From positions 1 to 38,299 of the IMG/VR virus record IMGVR_UViG_3300046004_001147: DNA of 38,299 nucleotides, one strand, 5' to 3'. The position numbers and the translations under genes were made by a program. Within the stretch, counting starts at the first letter, position 1; each line of letters opens with the position of its first letter. The notes beneath the pieces are model-generated. The model saw nothing but the letters and a program-made list of their open reading frames with translations. It did not search any database and was not told the origin of the DNA. This DNA comes from a virus. Below, piece by piece: positions 8,253-32,871 of the stretch.

Positions 8253-9323
8253 TTAGAGCTTCCCGTAATCGACCATGAGGAAGCCCGTCCAGTGCCGGAC
8301 AACCGCGTCAATCCCCATCTTGAGAACGTCCTGCGCCATCACGCCGACGTGGCGCTTGCGGCCCCAAATGTAGCGGAACTCGTAAACCGGCAGTCCGCTA
8401 TCCATCGTGCCGACGCGGACAATATCGCGCTTCAAGCGACGATCAGACGCGCCGATAGCCGCGCCACCAAGCGAGAACAGCCCGCTCATAAGAGCGTTTT
8501 GCTGACCCACACGCGTCTGATAGTTTTGGTTCTGCTGATTCAGGCTCATGGCGTTAGCGCCAAGCACGTCAGTTTGGCCTACGCCTGTCGGACTGTATTG
8601 AATGCCCTGCGGCATACCGACTTGACCCGTTCCGAGAAGGGCTTGCAGTTGGGCTAGGGGCTGGTTTTGGACGTATGCCCGCTCTTGAAGGCCCTGCGTC
8701 CGCGCCTGATTACCGAATGTCCCACCGGCAATAGCGTTTTGAATAGCGCGAGATTGTTCCGCGCCACCAGCCTGAATGGACTGATTGCGGGCCTCTCCGT
8801 AAGCGTCGCTTCTATCTCGTTCAAAATCTTGGCGAAGATTTCGCGTCGCCTCGCTGTTTGCGCCAAGACCCTGAGCGGCCAATCGCGCATCCTGCGAGCG
8901 TTCCATTCGGTCAAACTGCGGGTCAAGGCGACGTGTCTGGCTCGCATAAACCGAATCCTCAAACCGTTGGCGGTCAAAGTCGGGAGAGTTGAAGCCTTGA
9001 AGTTCCGGCAGGCCCTCGGTGTTCAAGCCTTGGCCAAGCGCATCGTTGACGCGGCCAATCTGCTGACCCGCCGTGTCCAGCGCGGAGCCGTAAACCGACG
9101 TTGAGCGGTCGTAATTCTGCTGCTCTCCGGGGGAAAGCATCGTCTCTTGGCGGTAGCCACCGGGTGCGGTCGAGTCAGCGACATAGCGAACGGACCCTTG
9201 TGGGCCGCTGGCGTTCACCATGTTTAGACGCTGTTGCTCTTGGGCAGTCGCGGTATTAGCCGCGCCTTGGGCGTTGGCTAGTTGGACGGGATCAGGGGCT
9301 GCCGGGGGGCGGGGCTTGCTCAC
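8253..9323 (-). CDS. virion protein with C-terminal S74 intramolecular chaperone domain
   Basis: This 356-residue protein has a Gln/Asn-rich helical N-terminal region that resembles phage internal virion proteins. It ends in a 64-residue module beginning SDRRLKRDI (residue 293 on). This matches the peptidase S74/endosialidase chaperone signature: the Ser for autocleavage (S293) and the Lys five positions later (K298) are both present. The later HVGVMAQDVL and VDYGKL segments are also typical. The chaperone domain drives trimer folding and may be released. GTG is the start; the gene overlaps the end of the GNAT gene by about 30 bases. Confidence 0.75.
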   Translation of the reverse strand: MSKPRPPAAPDPVQLANAQGAANTATAQEQQRLNMVNASGPQGSVRYVADSTAPGGYRQETMLSPGEQQNYDRSTSVYGSALDTAGQQIGRVNDALGQGLNTEGLPELQGFNSPDFDRQRFEDSVYASQTRRLDPQFDRMERSQDARLAAQGLGANSEATRNLRQDFERDRSDAYGEARNQSIQAGGAEQSRAIQNAIAGGTFGNQARTQGLQERAYVQNQPLAQLQALLGTGQVGMPQGIQYSPTGVGQTDVLGANAMSLNQQNQNYQTRVGQQNALMSGLFSLGGAAIGASDRRLKRDIVRVGTMDSGLPVYEFRYIWGRKRHVGVMAQDVLKMGIDAVVRHWTGFLMVDYGKL

Positions 9324-9759
9324 TCACACGATCCTTGTTGAAGCGGTGGGCTTGCCACTCGCTTTTGAGAAGACCGGATATGATGCAGTCATCGTCACCG
9401 AATCCACCGCGAATAGTCCCCTCGTGTTTGAACCCAAACTTTTGGAGGAACTGGCGAGCGCGACGCAGTTTCTTCGGCGTCAGGCTGGTGATCCGGTTGC
9501 AATCGAGTTGATCGAAAGCGTAGCGCATGATGCCCGTAACAAGGCGAGGCGTCAACCAGTCAGGCCGAATAGCGGCAAAACTGACCTCTATGTTGCGATA
9601 TTGGGGCTGATACTGATTGAATACGACGCCGCCAATGAGATTATCGTGCTTATCGACAACCCCGATAGCCTCGCATGGCCCCCAATCCAATCCATGCCCG
9701 ATCTGGTCCGCTACCCATTGAGCGACGAGAGGGGAGAACGGGCCAGAGACTAGCCTCAA
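9292..9759 (-). CDS. GNAT-family N-acetyltransferase
   Basis: This 155-residue protein has the layout of GNAT enzymes, which transfer acetyl from acetyl-CoA to an amine. A beta-rich core (VFNQYQPQYRNIEVSFAAI, about 46-64) is followed by a helix starting at TPRLVTGIMRYAFDQL. Then come a strand NRITSLTPKK and the classical late segment RQFLQKFGFKHEG...R. Proteins of this type often sit among podovirus tail genes, where the substrate is unknown; a capsid, tail or host protein is possible. A TTG start overlaps the TGA of the tail-hub gene (TTGA), and no nearby ATG exists. The 3' end overlaps the S74 gene. Confidence 0.8.
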   Translation of the reverse strand: MRLVSGPFSPLVAQWVADQIGHGLDWGPCEAIGVVDKHDNLIGGVVFNQYQPQYRNIEVSFAAIRPDWLTPRLVTGIMRYAFDQLDCNRITSLTPKKLRRARQFLQKFGFKHEGTIRGGFGDDDCIISGLLKSEWQAHRFNKDRVSEQAPPPGSP

Positions 9760-12333: not shown

Positions 12334-12630
12334 TTAGACCTTTGGCGGGCGTCCGCGCTTTTTAGGCGTCGGAGGGGTTTCTACAGGTTCGGTAGCCCCT
12401 CCCGGCTCCCCGTCGTTGTCATGGTCGAAAGCCTCAATCGGCGCATGATTGAAAGCGTTGCTGAGATACATAGCATACTCCGCGCCATGTGCCTTCTTGT
12501 CTGCTTCCGTTGCCAGACGCGGGCCGATGACCGACGACGAATCCGCCTGATAGCGGAACATCAGCACACCGCCCTCTTTGAAGAAGGTAGCGCCCGGCTT
12601 ATACATCACGTCGCGTTCAAGATTGCTCAT
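12334..12630 (-). CDS. small virion-region protein with C-terminal AT-hook-like tail
   Basis: This 98-residue protein has a small mixed domain (about 1-65). An acidic, Gly/Pro-rich linker follows, and the protein ends with KKRGRPPKV. The RGRP core flanked by Lys matches the AT-hook that binds the minor groove of AT-rich DNA. Such tails occur on some phage structural proteins, where they may contact packaged DNA. It starts in an ATGA overlap with the upstream gene. Family unknown; DNA contact is inferred from the motif only. Confidence 0.6.
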   Translation of the reverse strand: MSNLERDVMYKPGATFFKEGGVLMFRYQADSSSVIGPRLATEADKKAHGAEYAMYLSNAFNHAPIEAFDHDNDGEPGGATEPVETPPTPKKRGRPPKV

Positions 12631-13148
12631 GCTGCTGCATCCACTTTCTTGGCCTCAAGAGCGAGCGCCAGTTTGTCCTCAAGCTCACGAATCCGCTGCG
12701 TCATTTCCGCAAGGGGCTTTTCGGCGTCCGTCTGCTCAATAAACCGCTGAGCCTTCGCGCGGAGAGCGTGGCCACCCATCGGAACGCACTTGGCAAGCTG
12801 ACTGTCGGAAAGGCCAGCAAGGGCCTCCACGGTGCGAATGTGAACGCTGTTAAGCTCGATGACCTGACTGCGACCAATGCCAGCCCATTCCTCTAGCGGG
12901 GTTCCGCTTTCAGGGGCTTCCATGTTGGCCTTGAACGCGGCGTATTTGGTAGGCCAGCGGTCGCGGTGTTCGTCCTTCACCGCCACGTCAACGATGTTCT
13001 TGTTATCGCCCGGCACGATCAGTTCGACGTACTCAACGTCATTCCAGACCTCGCGGCCTTCCTTCTCCGACAGGAAGTTGTTGCGGACCGGCTTGATATG
13101 AAAACGCGGGATGACCCGATCCCGACCGTCTGGCGCTACATAATCCAT
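12627..13148 (-). CDS. head-tail region structural protein, unknown family
   Basis: This 173-residue protein has a beta-rich N-terminal half (IPRFHIKPVRNNF, VEYVELIVPGDNKN). A helix-hairpin-like part follows (SVHIRTVEALAGLSDSQLAK, about 100-120), and it ends in a coiled coil (about 140-168). A GGAGGT Shine-Dalgarno lies seven bases before the ATG, which directly follows the TAG of the FkbM gene. Position between the capsid block and the adaptor suggests a head completion or scaffold-like protein. No family was recognised. Confidence 0.6.
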   Translation of the reverse strand: MDYVAPDGRDRVIPRFHIKPVRNNFLSEKEGREVWNDVEYVELIVPGDNKNIVDVAVKDEHRDRWPTKYAAFKANMEAPESGTPLEEWAGIGRSQVIELNSVHIRTVEALAGLSDSQLAKCVPMGGHALRAKAQRFIEQTDAEKPLAEMTQRIRELEDKLALALEAKKVDAAA

Positions 13149-13727
13149 CTATGACCTCCAATAGATCGTATCGTTGCCAATCCGCATCTTGCGGGTATAG
13201 CCGGGCAAGTCCGCCTTTGGACCCAGCCCTTTCTCTTCAAGGACTATGATAGGCGAAAACTTCTCGATTGTCGCCATAGCGCCCGCAATCGCGTCAGCCT
13301 CCGCGCCTTCAATGTCCAGCCAGATCAAATCGCATTGATCGAGGTTGAGGCCGTCAATGGTCAGAACAGGAACCGCAGTCCCCGGCAGCGTCTTGTGAGA
13401 ACCGCAGTTGTCCTTGTCGATGCGTAGGACGCCACACGTTCCGACTTCTGACCCGAGCGCGGCATAGTAGGTCGTGACGTTCTCGGCTGTGACGTTGGCC
13501 ACCAAGCAATCAAGGTTGTCCGTGTCCGGCTCAAACGTGATAACCCGATCAAACACCTTGGCCAGCGCGAGGGGATAGACGCCGACATTTCCGCCCGCTT
13601 GAACGCAGACGCGCTTTTCCTTCACCAGCGGAAAGACGACGGGCATAGCCGCCGCGCACTCCGTCACCACCGCAGCACGGCAGCGCACGTCAAAATCAGG
13701 CCACCAAAGGCCGTCGATCTGCTTCAT
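13149..13727 (-). CDS. FkbM-family SAM-dependent methyltransferase
   Basis: This protein of about 192 residues carries the SAM-binding motif CVQAGGNVGVYPLALA followed by an acidic strand end in VITFEPD, both typical of FkbM-type methyltransferases. The DLIWLDIEGAEADAI and PIIVLEEKG segments are also family features. FkbM enzymes O-methylate sugars on glycans, so it may modify a sugar added by the glycosyltransferase two genes upstream. A longer reading frame up to 13835 exists. The ATG at 13727 is chosen because it overlaps the TGA of the 26-residue micro-ORF, and the extension would run through that micro-ORF and into the gene before it. Confidence 0.85.
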   Translation of the reverse strand: MKQIDGLWWPDFDVRCRAAVVTECAAAMPVVFPLVKEKRVCVQAGGNVGVYPLALAKVFDRVITFEPDTDNLDCLVANVTAENVTTYYAALGSEVGTCGVLRIDKDNCGSHKTLPGTAVPVLTIDGLNLDQCDLIWLDIEGAEADAIAGAMATIEKFSPIIVLEEKGLGPKADLPGYTRKMRIGNDTIYWRS

Positions 13728-13804
13728 CGGTTGGCATCCATGTAGATCGCGACAACGGCAATCCAGCACAGCCAGATGGCGAGAAAGGAGAGCACCCACA
13801 TCAT
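13724..13804 (-). CDS. 26-residue single-membrane-segment micro-protein
   Basis: Reading from 13804 gives 26 residues with one hydrophobic helix (WVLSFLAIWLCWIAVVAIY) flanked by Met-Met and a short polar MDANR end. Its ATG overlaps the TGA of the upstream gene (ATGA), and its own TGA overlaps the ATG of the FkbM gene (ATGA), so it fits exactly into the coupled chain. That exact fit and the clean membrane segment are the evidence that it is real. It could place the neighbouring methyltransferase at the membrane or simply bridge translation. No homology is claimed. Confidence 0.6.
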   Translation of the reverse strand: MMWVLSFLAIWLCWIAVVAIYMDANR

Positions 13805-14121
13805 TTTGAGTCTCGCGCTGCAACGTAATCTTCAACGCTATTAACTTTGTCTACCGCTAACCGCAGAGAGCCTAGCGTACATTTTACGGCTTGATCTTCC
13901 GTCATTCCGCGACCGTACCCCGCCTCCTTGTCGCGCTTCCATTGCTCAAGCGCCCAGCCGGTTAAATCACCCTTTTCAGCCATCCACGACTCAACCGCCG
14001 CCTCTCGCGCTGCACGGAACGCCTTGGCGATTAGCGCCGCTTTCTCTTTTTCCTGATCTTCCCACGCCTTCAGAACTTTTCTGGCGGCGTCAGCGTCCTG
14101 TGCGGTCAGTTTTTTCTTCAC
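13801..14121 (-). CDS. charged helical protein, unknown function
   Basis: This 106-residue protein is almost entirely helical and highly charged (AARKVLKAWEDQEKEKAALI near the N-terminus). It contains a Trp-rich stretch (MAEKGDLTGWALEQWKRD) and no hydrophobic core pattern of an enzyme. A GTG start overlaps the stop of the glycosyltransferase fusion, and the stop overlaps the 26-residue micro-ORF. It lies inside the sugar/methyl-transfer cassette. No family was recognised. Confidence 0.55.
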   Translation of the reverse strand: MKKKLTAQDADAARKVLKAWEDQEKEKAALIAKAFRAAREAAVESWMAEKGDLTGWALEQWKRDKEAGYGRGMTEDQAVKCTLGSLRLAVDKVNSVEDYVAARDSK

Positions 14122-15554
14122 CGGAGCAACCTCCCCATGTCGGGGATCAGCCCCTTGCCATGCGTCACCAGTTTAACGCCACGGTCGCGCAAATACAAAA
14201 ACTGCTGCTGCCACTCCATAGCCTGACGGATCATCCACCGGGCGCAAGTGTACGTCTTTCCCGCTATCGTCACCTGCATAGTCTCTTCGCCGTCATTCAG
14301 GCTTTGCGAATAGGCGTGGTGCTTGCCCTCCGCGTAAGAGCTGTCGAAGCCGTAGAGGTGGATTTTCTTGTAGCCCGACAGCCACGCCAGATTGATAGCC
14401 CGAAGCCCTACAGTCCCGCCTCCCGGCACTAGAACGCATGGCCTTTGGTCAGGGCCATCGTCAAACCAAGGTTGGATGATTTCCATAAGCTCAGAGCCGG
14501 AACCCATCGCGTTGTGCCACAGAACAACATCACGCCCCGAAAGCGTATCAAACACGCACGGATGAACCTGTGAAGCGAGGAAATAGCGCACGTCCTTTGG
14601 CGCATCCTCCACCATGTGCAGATTTTCTTCCCGCGCGTCCAACATCACATGAGCGTCCGGCGTGATGCCTTTGGACACCAGAAACCGCAGCGCGTTGTTC
14701 ACGGTGATGATCTTCGCGCCTTTGCGCTTCCAATCGCGGATAGCTCGCACACTGTCCGAAAGCGAGGGACCGCCGCCGACGATGACGCACGGCTTGTCCT
14801 GCTCTCCGAAGCCCGAGAACCACGGCACATCCCGCAGCACGTTTGCCCTGACATTCCCATAGGCGAAGTCGTGCGTGACGTTCATGCCCTTTAGTTCTGG
14901 CATGGCCGTAAAGCCTCCGACCTTCCAGACGCCCGGCACCCACCCCTCAGTCACTTCATGGGGTTTAGGCTCGCCGTGGAAGATGATGGCCTTGGACGAC
15001 TCGGGAGGCCATGCAACGGCGTTGCGATACGACACGAACCATTCAGGCGGAAACGTCTCCCATGCGCTGACTTGGCTAATCCATTCCTGATCGCCGCCGT
15101 TGACCTGACCGGCAGGGAGAAGGCCTTTAAGGCTCTCCGTGGGGCGGTCGATTACTTCACCGTCCAGAAGGAACCGACTCCAAATATCCCGATGCTCGCC
15201 ATGACGCCACCGCATAACGCTGCTGTTATAGGTCGGCCAGTGCCAATCCTTAATAATGCCGTGCGGCAGACCTTCAAGGCGTCCAGTCACGCACACGTCC
15301 AAATCCATGTAAAGGATTTCGGCTCCATTTTCCCACGGCATCCACGCTGAAAACAAGGCTATCTTCTGCCACCAGCCCGGCAGATTGGGAATGTGCGGAA
15401 TAGCCGTGATGCCTTCGGGAAGGCTCTCAGGGTCATCCGTCAGGCACCAGTGGCGCGCTTCTTCGGCTAGATGCCTCGCAATGCCGTCGTGAAGGCGGGT
15501 GACGTACTCAATCGGGTATTTAGTCCCAACGCGGACGCTGACGACGTTAATCAT
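14118..15554 (-). CDS. glycosyltransferase fused to a DUF115 (MptE/Maf-like) domain
   Basis: This 478-residue protein has two parts. Residues 1 to about 205 look like a GT-A glycosyltransferase: a start INVVSVRVGTKYP, the metal-binding DxD in LYMDLDV (D84/D86), NGGDQEW at 152-158 and FHGEPKPHE at 192-200. Residues from about 253 look like DUF115, the 6-hydroxymethylpterin pyrophosphokinase MptE-like/Maf-like fold: the glycine motif VGGGPSLSD (259-267), KIITVNNALRFL and MLDAREEN. Maf-type relatives take part in flagellin glycosylation. Both halves could build or attach a sugar on a virion or host-surface component. It starts in an ATGA overlap and is followed by the FkbM methyltransferase. Domain calls are strong; the substrate is unknown. 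Confidence 0.8.
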   Translation of the reverse strand: MINVVSVRVGTKYPIEYVTRLHDGIARHLAEEARHWCLTDDPESLPEGITAIPHIPNLPGWWQKIALFSAWMPWENGAEILYMDLDVCVTGRLEGLPHGIIKDWHWPTYNSSVMRWRHGEHRDIWSRFLLDGEVIDRPTESLKGLLPAGQVNGGDQEWISQVSAWETFPPEWFVSYRNAVAWPPESSKAIIFHGEPKPHEVTEGWVPGVWKVGGFTAMPELKGMNVTHDFAYGNVRANVLRDVPWFSGFGEQDKPCVIVGGGPSLSDSVRAIRDWKRKGAKIITVNNALRFLVSKGITPDAHVMLDAREENLHMVEDAPKDVRYFLASQVHPCVFDTLSGRDVVLWHNAMGSGSELMEIIQPWFDDGPDQRPCVLVPGGGTVGLRAINLAWLSGYKKIHLYGFDSSYAEGKHHAYSQSLNDGEETMQVTIAGKTYTCARWMIRQAMEWQQQFLYLRDRGVKLVTHGKGLIPDMGRLLR

Positions 15555-15742
15555 TTAGGCTTTACCTTCCCGAATCCGTAATGCTTTCGGAACTCGGCAA
15601 CGACAGCCTCCAGAAACGCCGTAGCGTCGTCTGGGTTTTCAGCAAGCGCAGCTTTCCCAGCATCAACCGCAGCCGCAGCAATATCGTCTGGCACCGGATG
15701 GCGGACGCGGGCAAGGCGAACACACTCATCAACGTCAATCAT
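15551..15742 (-). CDS. small protein of unknown function after the capsid terminator
   Basis: This 63-residue protein is mostly helical, with an N-terminal IDVDECVRLARVRHPVPDDI and a basic KVKPK end. The start at 15742 is preferred over the upstream ATG at 15754. The sequence of that upstream codon forms part of a GGAGGT Shine-Dalgarno sited five bases before 15742. It is the first gene after the capsid terminator and is coupled to the glycosyltransferase gene by ATGA. No family was recognised. Confidence 0.6.
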   Translation of the reverse strand: MIDVDECVRLARVRHPVPDDIAAAAVDAGKAALAENPDDATAFLEAVVAEFRKHYGFGKVKPK

Positions 15743-15754
15743 CGCTACCTCCAT

Positions 15755-15788
15755 AGCAAAACAGCCCCGAGGACGAACCCCGAGGCTG
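15755..15788 (-). terminator. rho-independent terminator after the capsid genes
   Basis: On the minus strand an 11-bp stem (CAGCCTCGGGG pairing with CCTCGGGGCTG, two G-U pairs) closes a UUCGU loop at 15788-15762. It is followed directly by UUUUGCU. It lies 48 bases after the stop of the putative decoration protein gene. A second short inverted repeat (CCCTAG...CTAGGG, 15805-15822) lies before it. It probably reduces read-through from the high-level capsid transcript into the next gene. Confidence 0.8.
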
Positions 15789-15835
15789 CTAAGCTACCAC
15801 CGAACCCTAGTGGAGGCTAGGGAACGACGAAAGGA

Positions 15836-16123
15836 CTAGAGGGCGGTCTTTTTGGCCCAGAAGTACTGGCCAGCAGTCACGCCGCCCGTGGTGTTGACCG
15901 TCCAACCAGCCGAACCCGCATCAGACGACGCAGAGCCGCTGGTGCCGATCAGGATAGTTTGCGTCGAAGACAGAGCCTCCGAAGCGCGGGCGTAAAGGTG
16001 GCTACGCGCGTCATTCCCGTTGATGCGGGTGTTCGTCGCGAAGGCCGGGGTGGACGACTTGGAATCGAGATCAATCCCAGCGGTCGGAGTGGTCGAGAAG
16101 ACCGTAGCGGCAGTCGATGCCAT
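15836..16123 (-). CDS. small head protein, putative capsid decoration protein
   Basis: This 95-residue protein is rich in Ser, Thr, Ala and Gly with strand-like segments (TQTILIGTSGSASSDAGSAG) and no charged helix clusters. It directly follows the major capsid gene. A GGAG Shine-Dalgarno sits eight bases before the ATG, and the gene lies between capsid and terminator, so it should be strongly expressed. Those facts suggest a head decoration or stabilising protein. No family was identified from sequence. Confidence 0.6.
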   Translation of the reverse strand: MASTAATVFSTTPTAGIDLDSKSSTPAFATNTRINGNDARSHLYARASEALSSTQTILIGTSGSASSDAGSAGWTVNTTGGVTAGQYFWAKKTAL

Positions 16124-16147: not shown

Positions 16148-17119
16148 TTAGGACTGGAACAGGACGCCTTGGAGGAAGGCGTTGCTGAGGGTCATGTTAC
16201 CGGCCCACACAATCGGCTTCACCATTGCGTCTTGGTTGATCGAACGGACTTCTTCCAGCGGAACCATGTTGCGGTCCTTGTGAGGACGCCAGTGGATGTA
16301 GCCGGTGTTCAGCATGTACATATGGTTAGCCGGGCAAGCCCCGCCGTAACCACCGTCAAACACCACGTCCGTACCCTTGTACTTCAGCGAGACATAGCCC
16401 GCGTCCGCTTCGTTGGGGTTGGTGACGCGCTGAATGTCCTGAAGCGCCGACTCATAGAAGCCGAAGTAGTTGTCATCGCACAGAATGAGGTCGGGCTTGT
16501 CAGTGCCACGCGAGCATTGGCGATACAGGGTGTTCATGAACCGCACGATGTTGGCAGCCGAAGCAGCCGAACCACCGTCCGAGGTCGCTTGGAACTTCTG
16601 GTTTTGCCAGAACGCCCAAGTGGCGCGGTTGATGCCGCCGACCGTACCCGTGGTCGGATCATCAGCCACCAGAAGCTGAAGGCCGCCGATCTGCTTCCCA
16701 CCCGACGCGGTGCCGTTGGAATACAGGTCTTCAGCCACACCGTTCTGCATGGTTTTCTCGGCGTTCTTGATGCGCGAGGCCAGCAGGTCGATGATCGCAT
16801 CAACGCCGGAGTTTTGCAGTTGCTCCAGACCGCTCATGGTCACGTTGACTGCGATTTGCTTCCAGTCGAACTCAGCAGCCGTGAACACGTCGCTAGGCGA
16901 GATGTTCAGGACTTCGTAACCCGAGTAACGCTGATAAGTGACGTTCTCGGCGTATTCGAGTTCTTGCAGGATGGTGCGGCCACCGGAAACCGGCTTGATC
17001 GTACCACGACGGTTCATACGCGACAGAATCGCGTTGTTGTTGGTGACGTTATCCGCCAGCTTGCCCGTGCGGTTGCGCAGGGTAGTGGTGGCGATTTCCG
17101 AGACATTCGGGGATGCCAT
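16148..17119 (-). CDS. major capsid protein
   Basis: This 323-residue protein builds the icosahedral head. It follows the scaffold gene and precedes a small decoration-type gene and a terminator, the usual setting. The sequence has the typical N-terminal region (TTTLRNRTGKLADNVTNNNA, IKPVSGGRTILQELEYAEN), a central segment with EDLYSNGT, and PDLILCDDNYFGFYESALQD. The C-terminal part has a VFDGGYGG loop and ends with a TLSNAFLQGVLFQ strand, as in many HK97-fold phage coat proteins. A strong AGGAG Shine-Dalgarno lies seven bases before ATG. There is no obvious prohead protease gene or N-terminal delta domain. Confidence 0.88.
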   Translation of the reverse strand: MASPNVSEIATTTLRNRTGKLADNVTNNNAILSRMNRRGTIKPVSGGRTILQELEYAENVTYQRYSGYEVLNISPSDVFTAAEFDWKQIAVNVTMSGLEQLQNSGVDAIIDLLASRIKNAEKTMQNGVAEDLYSNGTASGGKQIGGLQLLVADDPTTGTVGGINRATWAFWQNQKFQATSDGGSAASAANIVRFMNTLYRQCSRGTDKPDLILCDDNYFGFYESALQDIQRVTNPNEADAGYVSLKYKGTDVVFDGGYGGACPANHMYMLNTGYIHWRPHKDRNMVPLEEVRSINQDAMVKPIVWAGNMTLSNAFLQGVLFQS

Positions 17120-22978: not shown

Positions 22979-24604
22979 TCAGAACTCTTGAGCCTGGCCA
23001 CGACGGTCCAGTTCATCGGCTAGGGCTGTGCCTCCGACTCCGAAGCCAAGGCCGCCTATTCCGTACTTCCGCAGGATTTTAACCAGTTCGTCGTTGAACA
23101 GAACGTAGTTGGATGAGCCTTCGCCAGCGGTCCTAGAGCCTCCGTCCAGATAGCGGATACCAGGAACGCCTGCCTCTAAAAGTCTCGCGGAAATCTCCGG
23201 TGCTTTTTGCGTTGGCATAGCCGGGCCACCGGGAATAGCTCTTGGCACGTCCCTTGCCGCCATGTTGTAGGCCCAGCCAGCGTTCTGCCCTTCTCGCGTC
23301 CGAAGGGCCGACAGATAGTCAGCAGCTTCTTGCTCGACGAAATCCCCGTAGCCGTCCACTTCGCCAAGGCCGCGCGCTTGAGCTAAGCGCCGCGCCTGCT
23401 GATAAAGGTCGTACTCATTATCGACCATTAGTCCTACATCGTGCGGGCTTTCACCCCGCCGCAATGCTTCGTCAACAATCCTCCGCAAGGCGGGGTCACT
23501 GATCGGGTCTGGCGCGGCAGGCGCGTCATATCCGTACTCGCGCAACACGTTCCGAACCGGCTCGGGCTGTCGATAGATCGGAGCATCCCAATCCATAAAC
23601 GCGGCAGGGTCGGCGTTAATTCCAACCTCATACATTGAGCCGGTCGGGGTTTTGTCGAACCACTGCCCCGCGTAAGGCTCAAGATCAGCGATTGTGGCCC
23701 TTGCCTCGCTTATGTCTGCCTCGGCAATCATTCGCTCTAGGTCGTCATTCGATGACGCCAAAGTGTTTTCAGCACGGGCCAACTGGTTTCTAGCGCCCTG
23801 CAATGCACTGTCCGCTGAGGGGTAAGCCTGCGCCATTCTCGCAAGGCGCGGGTTGCTTGCCACAATGTCGCCCCCAAGCGACAGGGCAGGCTGTTGCAGC
23901 GCGTCCCTATACGACCGCGCCACGTCCTCGCTCTCAGCAAAGTAAAGCCCGTGGCCGTATGCCTGCGCTCCCTCTCCTGTTCCAATCTTGTCGAGAGAGA
24001 AGCGGTCGAATGAGTGGGGCGAGCCGTGGAAGGCGCGAATAGGGTAATCAGGCTCTACGGGGGCAATCGGCGCAACATACGCTTGCGACGCCTCATCCCA
24101 TTGCGCGTTGGTCGGATAGCCCTCGTCTCCCGGACTAAGAACCCGCGCGCCAGTGTCATTCGGATTGGCCGCCTGATAACGGGCCAGCGCCGCCTCGGCC
24201 TCCGTCTGGCCTACGCTAGTCCGGCTAGGCGCAGGGGCGGAATCAGCCATAAGCTCACCCATGCGAGCCAAGGGCGAATCTGCCCTAGCCCGACGCCCGC
24301 CCCTTGCCGTCCTACCAATAGCGGGAATGCCGGGGATAGCGCCTAGAATGCCTAGGCCAATGCCGCCCCAATCGTTGTTTTGCGCGGCGGTCTGTAAATC
24401 CTCAGCCGCCAGAACATCGCCAAGGCCGGGGGCCATTTCCGTGCCAGAACGCACAATGCTATTGAACAATCCGCCGCCATAGCCGGGCAACTGTCTCTCG
24501 CCATACTCGTTTACGGCTGGCGCAGCCTTTTCTTGCAGGATGTCCATAAGCGCCCGCAAAGGCGCGGGGCGGGACGGATCAGGTCTAGCTCCGTTCCATT
24601 GCAT
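22979..24604 (-). CDS. ADP-ribosyltransferase-like protein of phage polyvalent type
   Basis: This 541-residue protein has a low-complexity N-terminal third (Pro/Ala, with an Ala/Gly hydrophobic stretch GGIGLGILGAIPGIPAIG at about 80-97). An ART-like domain follows: IRAFHGSPHSFDRFSLDKIG (His193), then AYGHGLYFAESEDVARSYRD (Tyr221), and near the end NYVLFNDELVKIL (Glu506). This His-Tyr-Glu order is that of diphtheria-toxin/PARP-type transferases, which move ADP-ribose from NAD to a target. Similar domains occur in large phage polyvalent proteins and MuF-type effectors. A C-terminal Gly-rich hydrophobic segment could insert in membrane. It might be injected with the DNA or act early on a host target. 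The start context is weak, and a second Met at residue 20 is possible. Confidence 0.7.
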   Translation of the reverse strand: MQWNGARPDPSRPAPLRALMDILQEKAAPAVNEYGERQLPGYGGGLFNSIVRSGTEMAPGLGDVLAAEDLQTAAQNNDWGGIGLGILGAIPGIPAIGRTARGGRRARADSPLARMGELMADSAPAPSRTSVGQTEAEAALARYQAANPNDTGARVLSPGDEGYPTNAQWDEASQAYVAPIAPVEPDYPIRAFHGSPHSFDRFSLDKIGTGEGAQAYGHGLYFAESEDVARSYRDALQQPALSLGGDIVASNPRLARMAQAYPSADSALQGARNQLARAENTLASSNDDLERMIAEADISEARATIADLEPYAGQWFDKTPTGSMYEVGINADPAAFMDWDAPIYRQPEPVRNVLREYGYDAPAAPDPISDPALRRIVDEALRRGESPHDVGLMVDNEYDLYQQARRLAQARGLGEVDGYGDFVEQEAADYLSALRTREGQNAGWAYNMAARDVPRAIPGGPAMPTQKAPEISARLLEAGVPGIRYLDGGSRTAGEGSSNYVLFNDELVKILRKYGIGGLGFGVGGTALADELDRRGQAQEF

Positions 24605-29680: not shown

Positions 29681-30012
29681 GGCAGCCGAGGAATCACTTT
29701 ACGTCCGTTCAGGACAACACCATCCGAAAGATGAAAAAGCTAGGCTTTAGCCCAAAGGAGATTGGCGAGAAGCTGGACCGCTCGGAATGGAGCATCCGGG
29801 ACCGTGCCGCTGATCTAGGCACCCCTTGGCGGAAAGAGCTTGGCACCAGCATCTTGATGAACTCGACCGCTAACGGGTTTGATCATGAGAGGGATGCAGA
29901 GGCTAAACAGCGTCAGGGTGATGCTAGGCTTGTCCGCGCTCTTGCCTTGGCTATTCAGGCGGGAGAACACTTGCCAGCGGGGACGGTTGTTCCCTTAACG
30001 TTGATCGGGTGA
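29677..30012 (+). CDS. GcrA-like helix-turn-helix protein 2
   Basis: This 111-residue protein is a diverged copy of the preceding one. Its HTH is IRKMKKLGFSPKEIGEKLDR followed by SEWSIRDRAADLGTPWR, and near its end is DARLVRALALAIQAGEHLPAG, close to the same segment in gene 1. The ATG at 29677 overlaps the previous stop. The GTG of the methyltransferase overlaps its own stop, so the regulators and enzyme are made together. Target DNA unknown. Confidence 0.65.
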   Translation: MRQPRNHFTSVQDNTIRKMKKLGFSPKEIGEKLDRSEWSIRDRAADLGTPWRKELGTSILMNSTANGFDHERDAEAKQRQGDARLVRALALAIQAGEHLPAGTVVPLTLIG

Positions 30013-30686
30013 CCATGCGTGAAGAGATTATAGGCGATTGCCGTCTGATTTTGGGGGATTGCCGGGACATTCTGCCGACGCTTGGGCCGGTTGATGCGGT
30101 TGTTACGGACCCGCCGTATGGGATTGGCCGCGACGGCAAGCCCCAATCGACCAGCAGCCACGGAGGCCACAAAGGGTACACGGCGCTGGGGTGGGACAAG
30201 GGCCGGCCAGACCCGGAAGTTTTCGCCGCGATGCTGGCCGCTGCCCCTTCCGTTGTCATTTGGGGCGGCAACTATTTCGCCGACCTTCTCCCCCCGTCAA
30301 GCAAGTGGCTGTCGTGGGATAAGGGCCAGCGCATAGACCAGGCGGACGCGGAGCTTGCGTGGACAAGCCACGACGGGGCGCTTCGCATCATGACCCTGAA
30401 CCGGGCCGAGATTGCCCGTGACGGCGCGGAGCATCCGACGCAGAAGCCCGTCCGTCTCATGGAGTGGACGCTGGAGCAGGTGAAGGCGCAGGGAACCGTC
30501 CTAGACCCGTTCATGGGGTCGGGAACAACGGGCGTCGCCTGTGTCCGTCGCGGCTGCGCCTTCATCGGCATAGAGCGCGAGCCGTCATATTTCGACATCG
30601 CCTGCCGCCGTATCGAGGAAGCCTACAAGCAGCCCCGCCTTTTCGCAGAGCCTGTAGCCAAGCCCATTCAGGAAGTTTTGATTTAG
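30009..30686 (+). CDS. DNA methyltransferase (beta-class, probable N6-adenine)
   Basis: This 225-residue enzyme methylates DNA using SAM. DPPY at residues 34-37 (catalytic motif IV) comes before the SAM-binding motif DPFMGSGTTG (166-175), the order of beta-class enzymes, with HPTQKP at 142-147. DPPY rather than SPPY favours adenine N6. The variable region between (about 40-130) would be the target-recognition part. There is no partner restriction gene, so it is an orphan enzyme: protection against host restriction or control of gene expression. GTG at 30009 (overlap) or ATG at 30015 may be the start. Confidence 0.88.
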   Translation: MTMREEIIGDCRLILGDCRDILPTLGPVDAVVTDPPYGIGRDGKPQSTSSHGGHKGYTALGWDKGRPDPEVFAAMLAAAPSVVIWGGNYFADLLPPSSKWLSWDKGQRIDQADAELAWTSHDGALRIMTLNRAEIARDGAEHPTQKPVRLMEWTLEQVKAQGTVLDPFMGSGTTGVACVRRGCAFIGIEREPSYFDIACRRIEEAYKQPRLFAEPVAKPIQEVLI

Positions 30687-31683: not shown

Positions 31684-31981
31684 GGCTCTACGGGCCGTGC
31701 AAAGCGCCATGACGCCTGCGACGGTCGAAAGGTGCGAGGAACACGTTTCCACGCTCCACGCGGTCACAGCGCACCGTCAGGACAGCGAGAACAGCCTTCG
31801 CCTCATCCTGCGCCTCTACAGCGACTGTCTGGCTAAATATCCGGCTGACGTGGTCAAGGCGGTGGTTGAGCGGTTCATGTACCGACCCGACAAGCCCAAC
31901 TTCTTCCCAACGCTCTCCGAACTAAAGGAGCAATGCGACCGGGCGGCATCACAACGCGAGCAACTTCTAAGGAGCCTATGA
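31382..31981 (+). CDS. second replication-region protein, in an overlapping frame
   Basis: This protein of up to 199 residues has a C-terminal half with SLRLILRLYSDCLAKYPADVVKAVVERFM and FFPTLSELKEQCDRAASQRE. This is a pattern seen in small phage proteins encoded just after O-like initiators and possibly acting in helicase loading. The start GTG at 31382 lies inside the initiator gene, seven bases after GAGGAG. Both frames are therefore read over about 300 bases. Internal starts at 31418 or 31580 would shorten the overlap. The C-terminal part is convincing; the N-terminal part is less so. Confidence 0.65.
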   Translation: MPEKISEVISSLMEKGQALIGASTGNDGAALPPTTNAAAIRAKLESQAPEDTDRNLHQWLISSLSVVPQPQVSLTYPTTGGYLRTVTGYSFEGLTDDNRSEALRAVQSAMTPATVERCEEHVSTLHAVTAHRQDSENSLRLILRLYSDCLAKYPADVVKAVVERFMYRPDKPNFFPTLSELKEQCDRAASQREQLLRSL

Positions 31982-32871
31982 TGACCCGCACGTTTGTTTC
32001 GTTCAGCGGAGGTCGCTCGTCTGGATTGATGGCAAAAATGATGAAGGACCGTCAGCGAGAAACTGGCGAGGAAATGATTTTTGGCTTTGCCAACACAGGC
32101 GAGGAAGACGAACGGACGCTGAGATTCGTTGACCGTTGCGACAAGCACTTCGGCCTAGAGTTGGTTTGGGTCGAGGCCGTCGTTCATCGAGACGAGCGCA
32201 AAGGCTCTACGCACAAGGTCGTTGATTTCAAATCAGCCAGCCGCAACGGAGAGCCGTTTGAGGACGTGGTTTCAAAATACGGCCTGCCAAACAAGTCCTA
32301 TCCGCATTGCAACCGAGAGCTAAAACTAGCTCCGATGCATTCCTATCTCCGATCGGTCGGTTGGGAACCGGGAACCTATGATACCGCGCTAGGCATTCGG
32401 GCCGATGAGGCGGACAGACGTTCTAAGAAGGCCAAAGAGAAGCGGTTGGTTTATCCGCTTATCAAGGCATTCATTCGCAAGCCCGAGGTCTATAGTTTTT
32501 GGAAGCAGCAACCGTTTGACCTTTATCTTCCGGAGCATCGCGGGAACTGCAAATGGTGCTGGAAAAAGAGCCTCCGCAAGCACCTTACCTTGGCCGTCGA
32601 TTACCCCGAGGTTTTCGACTTCCCTCGCAGGCTTGAGACCTATTACAGCGGCGTTAAGCCAGAGCGTGGACCGCAAGCCATATTTCGTCAAGAGATGACC
32701 GTGGCGGAAATTTTCGAGCGGTCAAAACAGCCGTTTGTGAAATTCCGTGACGGGCGCGAGGCTTTCGATCCCGAGCTAGACGCCAGCGGCGGCGGATGCG
32801 GAACCGACTCCTGCGAGATTGACGGCGACGACGATGACTTGATCGACCTTTTCACACGGAGGACGGTATGA
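31978..32871 (+). CDS. PAPS reductase-like (PP-loop/adenine nucleotide alpha hydrolase) protein
   Basis: This 297-residue protein has the PP-loop SGGRSSGLM (10-18), followed by a Rossmann-like part (IFGFANTGEEDERTLRFVDR) and a family-typical PHCNRELKLAPM. Cys clusters NCKWCWKK and, near the end, GGGCGTDSC could bind a metal or an iron-sulphur cluster. Relatives use ATP to activate a substrate, for example PAPS reduction, tRNA thiolation or DNA phosphorothioation. In phages the role is unknown; base modification is possible. The ATG overlaps the previous TGA and follows AAGGAG; a second ATG stands just after. Confidence 0.8.
   Translation: MMTRTFVSFSGGRSSGLMAKMMKDRQRETGEEMIFGFANTGEEDERTLRFVDRCDKHFGLELVWVEAVVHRDERKGSTHKVVDFKSASRNGEPFEDVVSKYGLPNKSYPHCNRELKLAPMHSYLRSVGWEPGTYDTALGIRADEADRRSKKAKEKRLVYPLIKAFIRKPEVYSFWKQQPFDLYLPEHRGNCKWCWKKSLRKHLTLAVDYPEVFDFPRRLETYYSGVKPERGPQAIFRQEMTVAEIFERSKQPFVKFRDGREAFDPELDASGGGCGTDSCEIDGDDDDLIDLFTRRTV

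Follow-up and report, generated by a model that had tools for sequence, protein, structure and literature searches.

A cassette coding for a fused glycosyltransferase and an FkbM-family methyltransferase was found in the structural block of an uncultivated podovirus, where on balance it probably serves to O-glycosylate a virion protein in the cytoplasm in a Maf-like manner, with the neighbouring decoration protein as a possible target, and then to O-methylate it. Glycosylation and O-methylation of a virion protein had been proposed in the preliminary description; it stands as the best-supported reading and as one that we infer. The 38,299 nt analysed (hereafter the window) constitute one virus record with the structural block on the minus strand in the order portal, scaffold, major capsid protein (MCP), decoration protein, cassette, p50-like protein, tail tube, stabilisation protein, acetyltransferase and virion structural protein. 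This contains, in order, the portal, scaffold, MCP, decoration, p50, tail tube and stabilisation genes by which the Mx8-type podovirus module is recognised. As first described, the cassette lies between capsid and tail genes, with the MCP and decoration protein on one side and tail genes from 12330 onward on the other; glycosyltransferase and methyltransferase genes within a virion gene block are one mark of a phage virion glycosylation cassette and both are found here. The features are as follows.

16148..17119, minus strand: MCP, Mx8-type (phrog_9953, E 3e-116), left border of the cargo site
15836..16123, minus strand: S/T-rich decoration protein, 95 aa, candidate acceptor
15760..15790, minus strand: strong hairpin with U4 after it, resembling a terminator and lying between decoration gene and sugar cassette (96-nt region, -46.1 kcal/mol, z -5.4)
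15551..15754, minus strand: 67-aa ORF upstream of the glycosyltransferase (GT) gene, with an ATGA overlap with its start; related to cluster c9 in a few relatives
14118..15554, minus strand: fused glycosyltransferase (GT-MptE, 478 aa), with a GT8-like GT-A domain (1-220) and a PF01973 MptE/Maf-like domain (about 225-478)
13801..14121, minus strand: 106-aa helical ORF, window-specific
13724..13804, minus strand: 26-aa single-span membrane micro-ORF, ATGA-coupled at both ends
13149..13727, minus strand: FkbM-family methyltransferase of 192 aa with an amended start at 13727 (PF05050, TIGR01444)
12627..13148, minus strand: Mx8 p50-like protein, right border of the cargo site (phrog_20268)

Overlapping stop and start codons (ATGA or GTGA) join the cassette genes at each junction, from the 67-aa ORF through the GT-MptE, helical and micro-ORF genes to the FkbM gene. 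A scan for sigma-70 promoters gave matches at chance level and hence no promoter evidence; it is strand and gene coupling that suggest late expression, and the position in the structural block sets timing at most, not the target. A repeat search within the window gave nothing relevant. Other genes observed in the window include a GNAT acetyltransferase (9292-9759, minus strand) located between tail/stabilisation genes, which also occurs in many Mx8-type phages (Mx9, BUCT555, ctMlz233) and is a possible second virion-modifying enzyme, an N6/N4 DNA methylase and a PAPS-reductase-like protein in the early region (30009-30686 and 31933-32871, both plus strand), and a 541-aa protein upstream of the terminase (22979-24604, minus strand) with a weak ART-PolyVal match that falls below the cut-off.

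The fusion of a GT-A glycosyltransferase with a DUF115/Maf-like domain, recognised in the preliminary description, was borne out by matches to PHROG 1962 (residues 7-211, E 4e-22) and to PF01973 (residues 249-409, E 1e-26; 93.8 bits for a Pfam gathering score of 34.6). Structure prediction of both halves, proposed at that time as a check, gave a Maf fold for one and an LgtC/glycogenin fold for the other. The AlphaFold2 model of the 478-aa protein has a pLDDT of 91.5 and a pTM of 0.64, the latter leaving the relative orientation of the domains unsure. In this model, residues 227-476 match Maf of Magnetospirillum (PDB 5MU5) with Z 22.0 (224 aa aligned, 3.0 Å) and archaeal MptE (8SD5) with Z 16.0, and a PF01973 profile search against PDB sequences ranked them in the same order (6e-12 for 5mu5 and 4e-6 for MptE). 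The PF01973 half, as modelled, is thus nearest in fold to the Maf flagellin glycosyltransferase, ahead of MptE, which strengthens the domain reading. Weak matches to PseD and WaaZ (NCBIfam, PF01973 half) and to the PHROG sialyltransferase family were also obtained, and the PF01973 domain of Maf has been described as resembling the sialyltransferase Cst-II (PMC11339370). With the Maf/PseD flagellin nonulosonate transferases, which are soluble protein glycosyltransferases, the window protein shares the PF01973 domain and its fold, but it lacks the Maf N- and C-terminal domains, carries a GT-A domain in front instead of the three-domain architecture, scores 20.9 bits against the full-length PseD model (cut-off 670) and is encoded in a phage capsid-tail block.

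Because PF01973 is named after MptE, the domain might be a true MptE-type pterin pyrophosphokinase, or a small-metabolite or nucleotide enzyme whose neighbours serve a non-glycan pathway. The 8SD5 match does place it in the same Pfam family as this 6-hydroxymethyl-dihydropterin pyrophosphokinase, yet the match is weaker than that to Maf by both fold and sequence, NCBIfam gave weak matches to PseD and WaaZ instead, no pterin gene was seen among the ORFs scanned, and PF01973 is repeatedly fused to a GT-A domain; we regard a pterin enzyme as quite improbable.

The GT half (residues 1-215) is predicted to resemble LgtC (Z 17.2) and glycogenin (Z 16.5), both of the GT8 family, with which it shares the GT-A fold and a DxD motif (D84-L85-D86, invariant in the sequences aligned) at a sequence identity of 15-20%. 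No match to Pfam GT8 was obtained at E up to 1, and a profile search reached glycogenin at 1e-6. Its conserved motifs are DLD (84-86), GGDQ (153-156) and H193, and D84, D86, G153-G154-D155-Q156 and H193 do not vary even in sequences of only about 38% identity. All 39 sequences aligned for the PF01973 half have S264, D306, T381 and D404, and at least 90% of them have H413-A414-Y415; these conserved residues are candidates for catalysis. The gene is under purifying selection (pN/pS 0.17 for 38 near-relative sequences; 0.09 for the MCP in near relatives). Maf and glycogenin both glycosylate protein.

The FkbM product exceeds the family cut-offs of both Pfam (PF05050, E 1.4e-11, 45.2 bits for a cut-off of 22.7) and NCBIfam (TIGR01444, 65.5 bits for 37.7) and is likewise under purifying selection (pN/pS 0.22 in near relatives). 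The helical protein, micro-ORF and FkbM gene of the preliminary description are all present on the minus strand, with two amendments. Firstly, the FkbM gene starts at ATG 13727, as in relatives, which share the start M-K-Q-I-D-G, and overlaps, as ATGA, with the stop of the micro-ORF; the TTG listed first, at 13835, was rejected since it lies upstream of the segment common to relatives. Secondly, the 106-aa helical ORF matched only the window's own copy and none of the relatives, and is therefore dispensable to the cassette. Of 39 near relatives, 30 have the micro-ORF (13804-13724, MMWVLSFLAIWLCWIAVVAIYMDANR in the window; MLVLGLLAVWLLWLLVVGIFVNTRR is one of the other forms), always with a hydrophobic span that ends in RR or NR (pN/pS 0.46); near-relative loci devoid of it mostly have another small gene (c3) directly after the GT gene. 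Since it was found in the window's near relatives only, the cassette in general can do without it. DNA repeated as a leader in front of several cargo genes was considered as a recombination element, a reading rejected since this DNA corresponds to the micro-ORF in another frame.

These features bear on a second explanation, in which glycans of the host surface (LPS, capsule, flagellin or S-layer) are altered by the cassette at a late stage of infection and progeny would thereby avoid re-adsorbing to debris or infected cells. The GT half has a strong fold match to LgtC, which acts on LPS as a galactosyltransferase, surface sugars are substrates of FkbM enzymes, and a conserved membrane peptide accompanies the cassette; this peptide could point to a membrane target, which counts against modification of the virion. 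On the other hand, the cassette block has neither a multi-span membrane partner nor a flippase, which also speaks for a cytoplasmic process, a protein glycosyltransferase is the closest match of the PF01973 half, and the site stays between the decoration and p50-like genes through wide divergence. Modification of the host surface is possible, if unlikely.

The same site was then compared in 115 non-redundant Mx8-type loci, the relatives being taken from viral contigs; part of these were retrieved with GT-MptE as query and the sample is therefore enriched, so that the counts given here are not prevalences. PF01973 occurs at the site in 80 loci of this enriched sample, 69 of which have GT-A and 67 a methyltransferase, whereas neither was found in the 35 loci lacking PF01973. 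By combination, 63 loci have all three, six GT-A and PF01973 only, four PF01973 and a methyltransferase, seven PF01973 alone and 35 none. Since the methyltransferase models were built from PF01973-positive loci, a Pfam search was run on 23 ORFs from the larger empty intervals and returned only HNH (with zinc loop), peptidase M15 and HTH matches. The preliminary description called the fusion unusual in a small podovirus. This holds for isolated phages and deposited records: Mx8, Mx9, Bradyrhizobium phage ppBjS10J-1, ctMlz233 and Microcystis phage Mwe-JY13 have no cassette here and carry one decoration or other short gene, in BUCT555 lysis genes occupy the site, no GT-A/PF01973 fusion was found in 50,697 deposited phage records, and a PF01973-half search of deposited phage records with the L123 protein found none. 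It does not hold for the uncultivated relatives, in which PF01973 is frequent in the enriched sample.

Among relatives, methyltransferase type (FkbM, Methyltransf_24 or Methyltransf_25), fusion state and domain order all vary. PF01973 stands alone in L078, L104 and L123, has Methyltransf_25 at its end in L100 and L122 or GT-A at its end, in reversed order, in L125, and forms a single chain with GT-A and Methyltransf_24 in L124. A separate FkbM gene lies downstream in the window group, L217, L220, L234 and L134 and upstream in L232, and a separate Methyltransf_24 gene occurs in L229-L231, L233 and L235. On the MCP tree, the presence of PF01973 needs 8 changes, 4 of which are forced by supported branches for the "none" state, and methyltransferase type changes 5 times among PF01973 carriers. 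That unlike methyltransferases replace one another next to the same transferase is the strongest evidence for a link between the sugar and methyl steps, and the shuffled fusions independently support the coupling of the two first suggested from the window. An independent-pairs test of PF01973 against methyltransferase gave 4 supported pairs and 0 opposite (p not below 0.125), that is an association in the right direction which, with too few supported pairs, is not statistically secured after phylogenetic correction.

Several further observations were made in these loci. The L134 contig, which has GT-MptE, FkbM and the complete structural block, belongs to a MAG of Rhodopila sp. (Acetobacteraceae), a hint of alphaproteobacterial hosts in the case of this relative; its portal match is split (L134:1463-3688; 3061 / 3254). 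In four relatives the MCP gene is split by inserts of ~0.25-0.75 kb (L226:2908-4641, L227:2661-3906, L233:2354-4035 and L235:2905-4517), which are probably introns, inteins or insertions of homing endonucleases. In many distant relatives (L124, L100, L112) the PF01973 gene is followed by a second small decoration-like protein (cluster c4), which is in tandem in L110/L112. Extra cargo beside GT-MptE comprises HNH_3/AP2 endonuclease and DNA methylase genes (L017:9427-9894, L007:1285-1851, L005:10065-10736).

Genes for HNH endonucleases, DNA methylase and lysis are found at the site as well, which would suit a neutral cargo hot spot where the PF01973, GT and methyltransferase genes travel as independent morons and share no function. 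Such a hot spot is improbable given the pN/pS values of 0.17-0.22, the lack of any locus among the 115 with GT-A or methyltransferase but no PF01973, and the occurrence of fusions in several orders. Hypermodification of the phage DNA with a methylated sugar, for which phage glycosyltransferases are known (Pyle 2024, as cited in PMC12619734), appears most improbable: no hydroxymethylase, TET/JBP-like or thymidylate-synthase-like gene was found among the larger early ORFs scanned, the fold matches are to protein and glycan enzymes, and the location is the virion block.

Relatives keep this chemistry at one spot while swapping and re-fusing its parts, and decoration of the virus particle is therefore most likely, modification of the host surface less so. 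The decoration protein, adjacent and likely exposed on the capsid, would be the most economical acceptor, capsid and tail proteins being also possible. Its predicted fold gave modest matches (best Z 7.1, below the level at which they would stand alone), which were used because the top eight were all phage or virus capsid entries, the best of them decoration or head-fibre base proteins. S/T enrichment of the decoration protein or MCP was rejected as an acceptor mark for want of a clear signal; outside the near clade, the decoration protein is about as rich in S/T where the module is present as where it is absent (0.217 and 0.208, respectively), and similar short decoration proteins also occur in loci without it. 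In the mechanism proposed for particle decoration, both domains, if active, would add sugars in the cytoplasm, with no lipid carrier, onto an assembling virion protein, with the Maf-like domain forming the Ser/Thr linkage or carrying out one of two sugar transfers and the GT8-like domain responsible for the other, and the FkbM enzyme would then methylate a hydroxyl of the added sugar. The likely benefit would be a modified particle surface (stability, adsorption, evasion). A more specific variant, rather unlikely as it stands, is that Mx8-type phages aim a flagellin-type (Maf-like) system at their own capsid surface: PF01973 transferases would put a host-made nonulosonate on the decoration protein, the fused GT8 domain would extend it and an exchangeable methyltransferase cap it, the parts being shuffled between phages like a serotype locus.

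The closest phage parallels are found in P1 and in mycobacteriophages. Genes pmgO, pmgP and pmgQ of P1 (hdm genes of P7; also phiNP) form one operon in which homologues of both halves lie near each other: PmgO and the PmgP-like protein of Citrobacter phage phiNP align with the PF01973 profile (hhalign probability 89%, E 2e-6, and 80%, 1e-5, respectively), and PmgQ is a GT-A homologue. All three are non-essential (PMC10695390) and, unlike in the window, they are separate genes outside the capsid-tail gap with no adjacent FkbM seen. Mycobacteriophages with virion glycosylation (Corndog, Che8) have GT and O-methyltransferase genes, those of Corndog lying within the virion genes, between portal and protease, and being proposed to modify the capsid (PMC4351075). 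Their GT genes are separate as annotated, with no PF01973 fusion reported, and the substrate is shown, both the capsid and the tail tube being reported to carry glycans (Freeman 2023, cited after PMC12619734 and PMC11256854), whereas the acceptor here is a candidate. Uncultured Caudovirales "MptE-like" fusions (e.g. A0A6J5PVH5, 700 aa), known as database entries only, probably belong to the same GT/PF01973 family with an extra domain.

The cassette is real and conserved and is a new version of phage virion-modification cassettes, the function of which we infer. Phage enzymes that glycosylate the virion are known chiefly from mycobacteriophages, and a modular PF01973, GT-A and methyltransferase locus would extend this record to a podovirus group known largely from metagenomes. 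If true, it would also give a function to "MptE-like" phage genes now labelled as pterin enzymes in databases and suggest a role for the unexplained pmgO, pmgP and pmgQ genes of P1.
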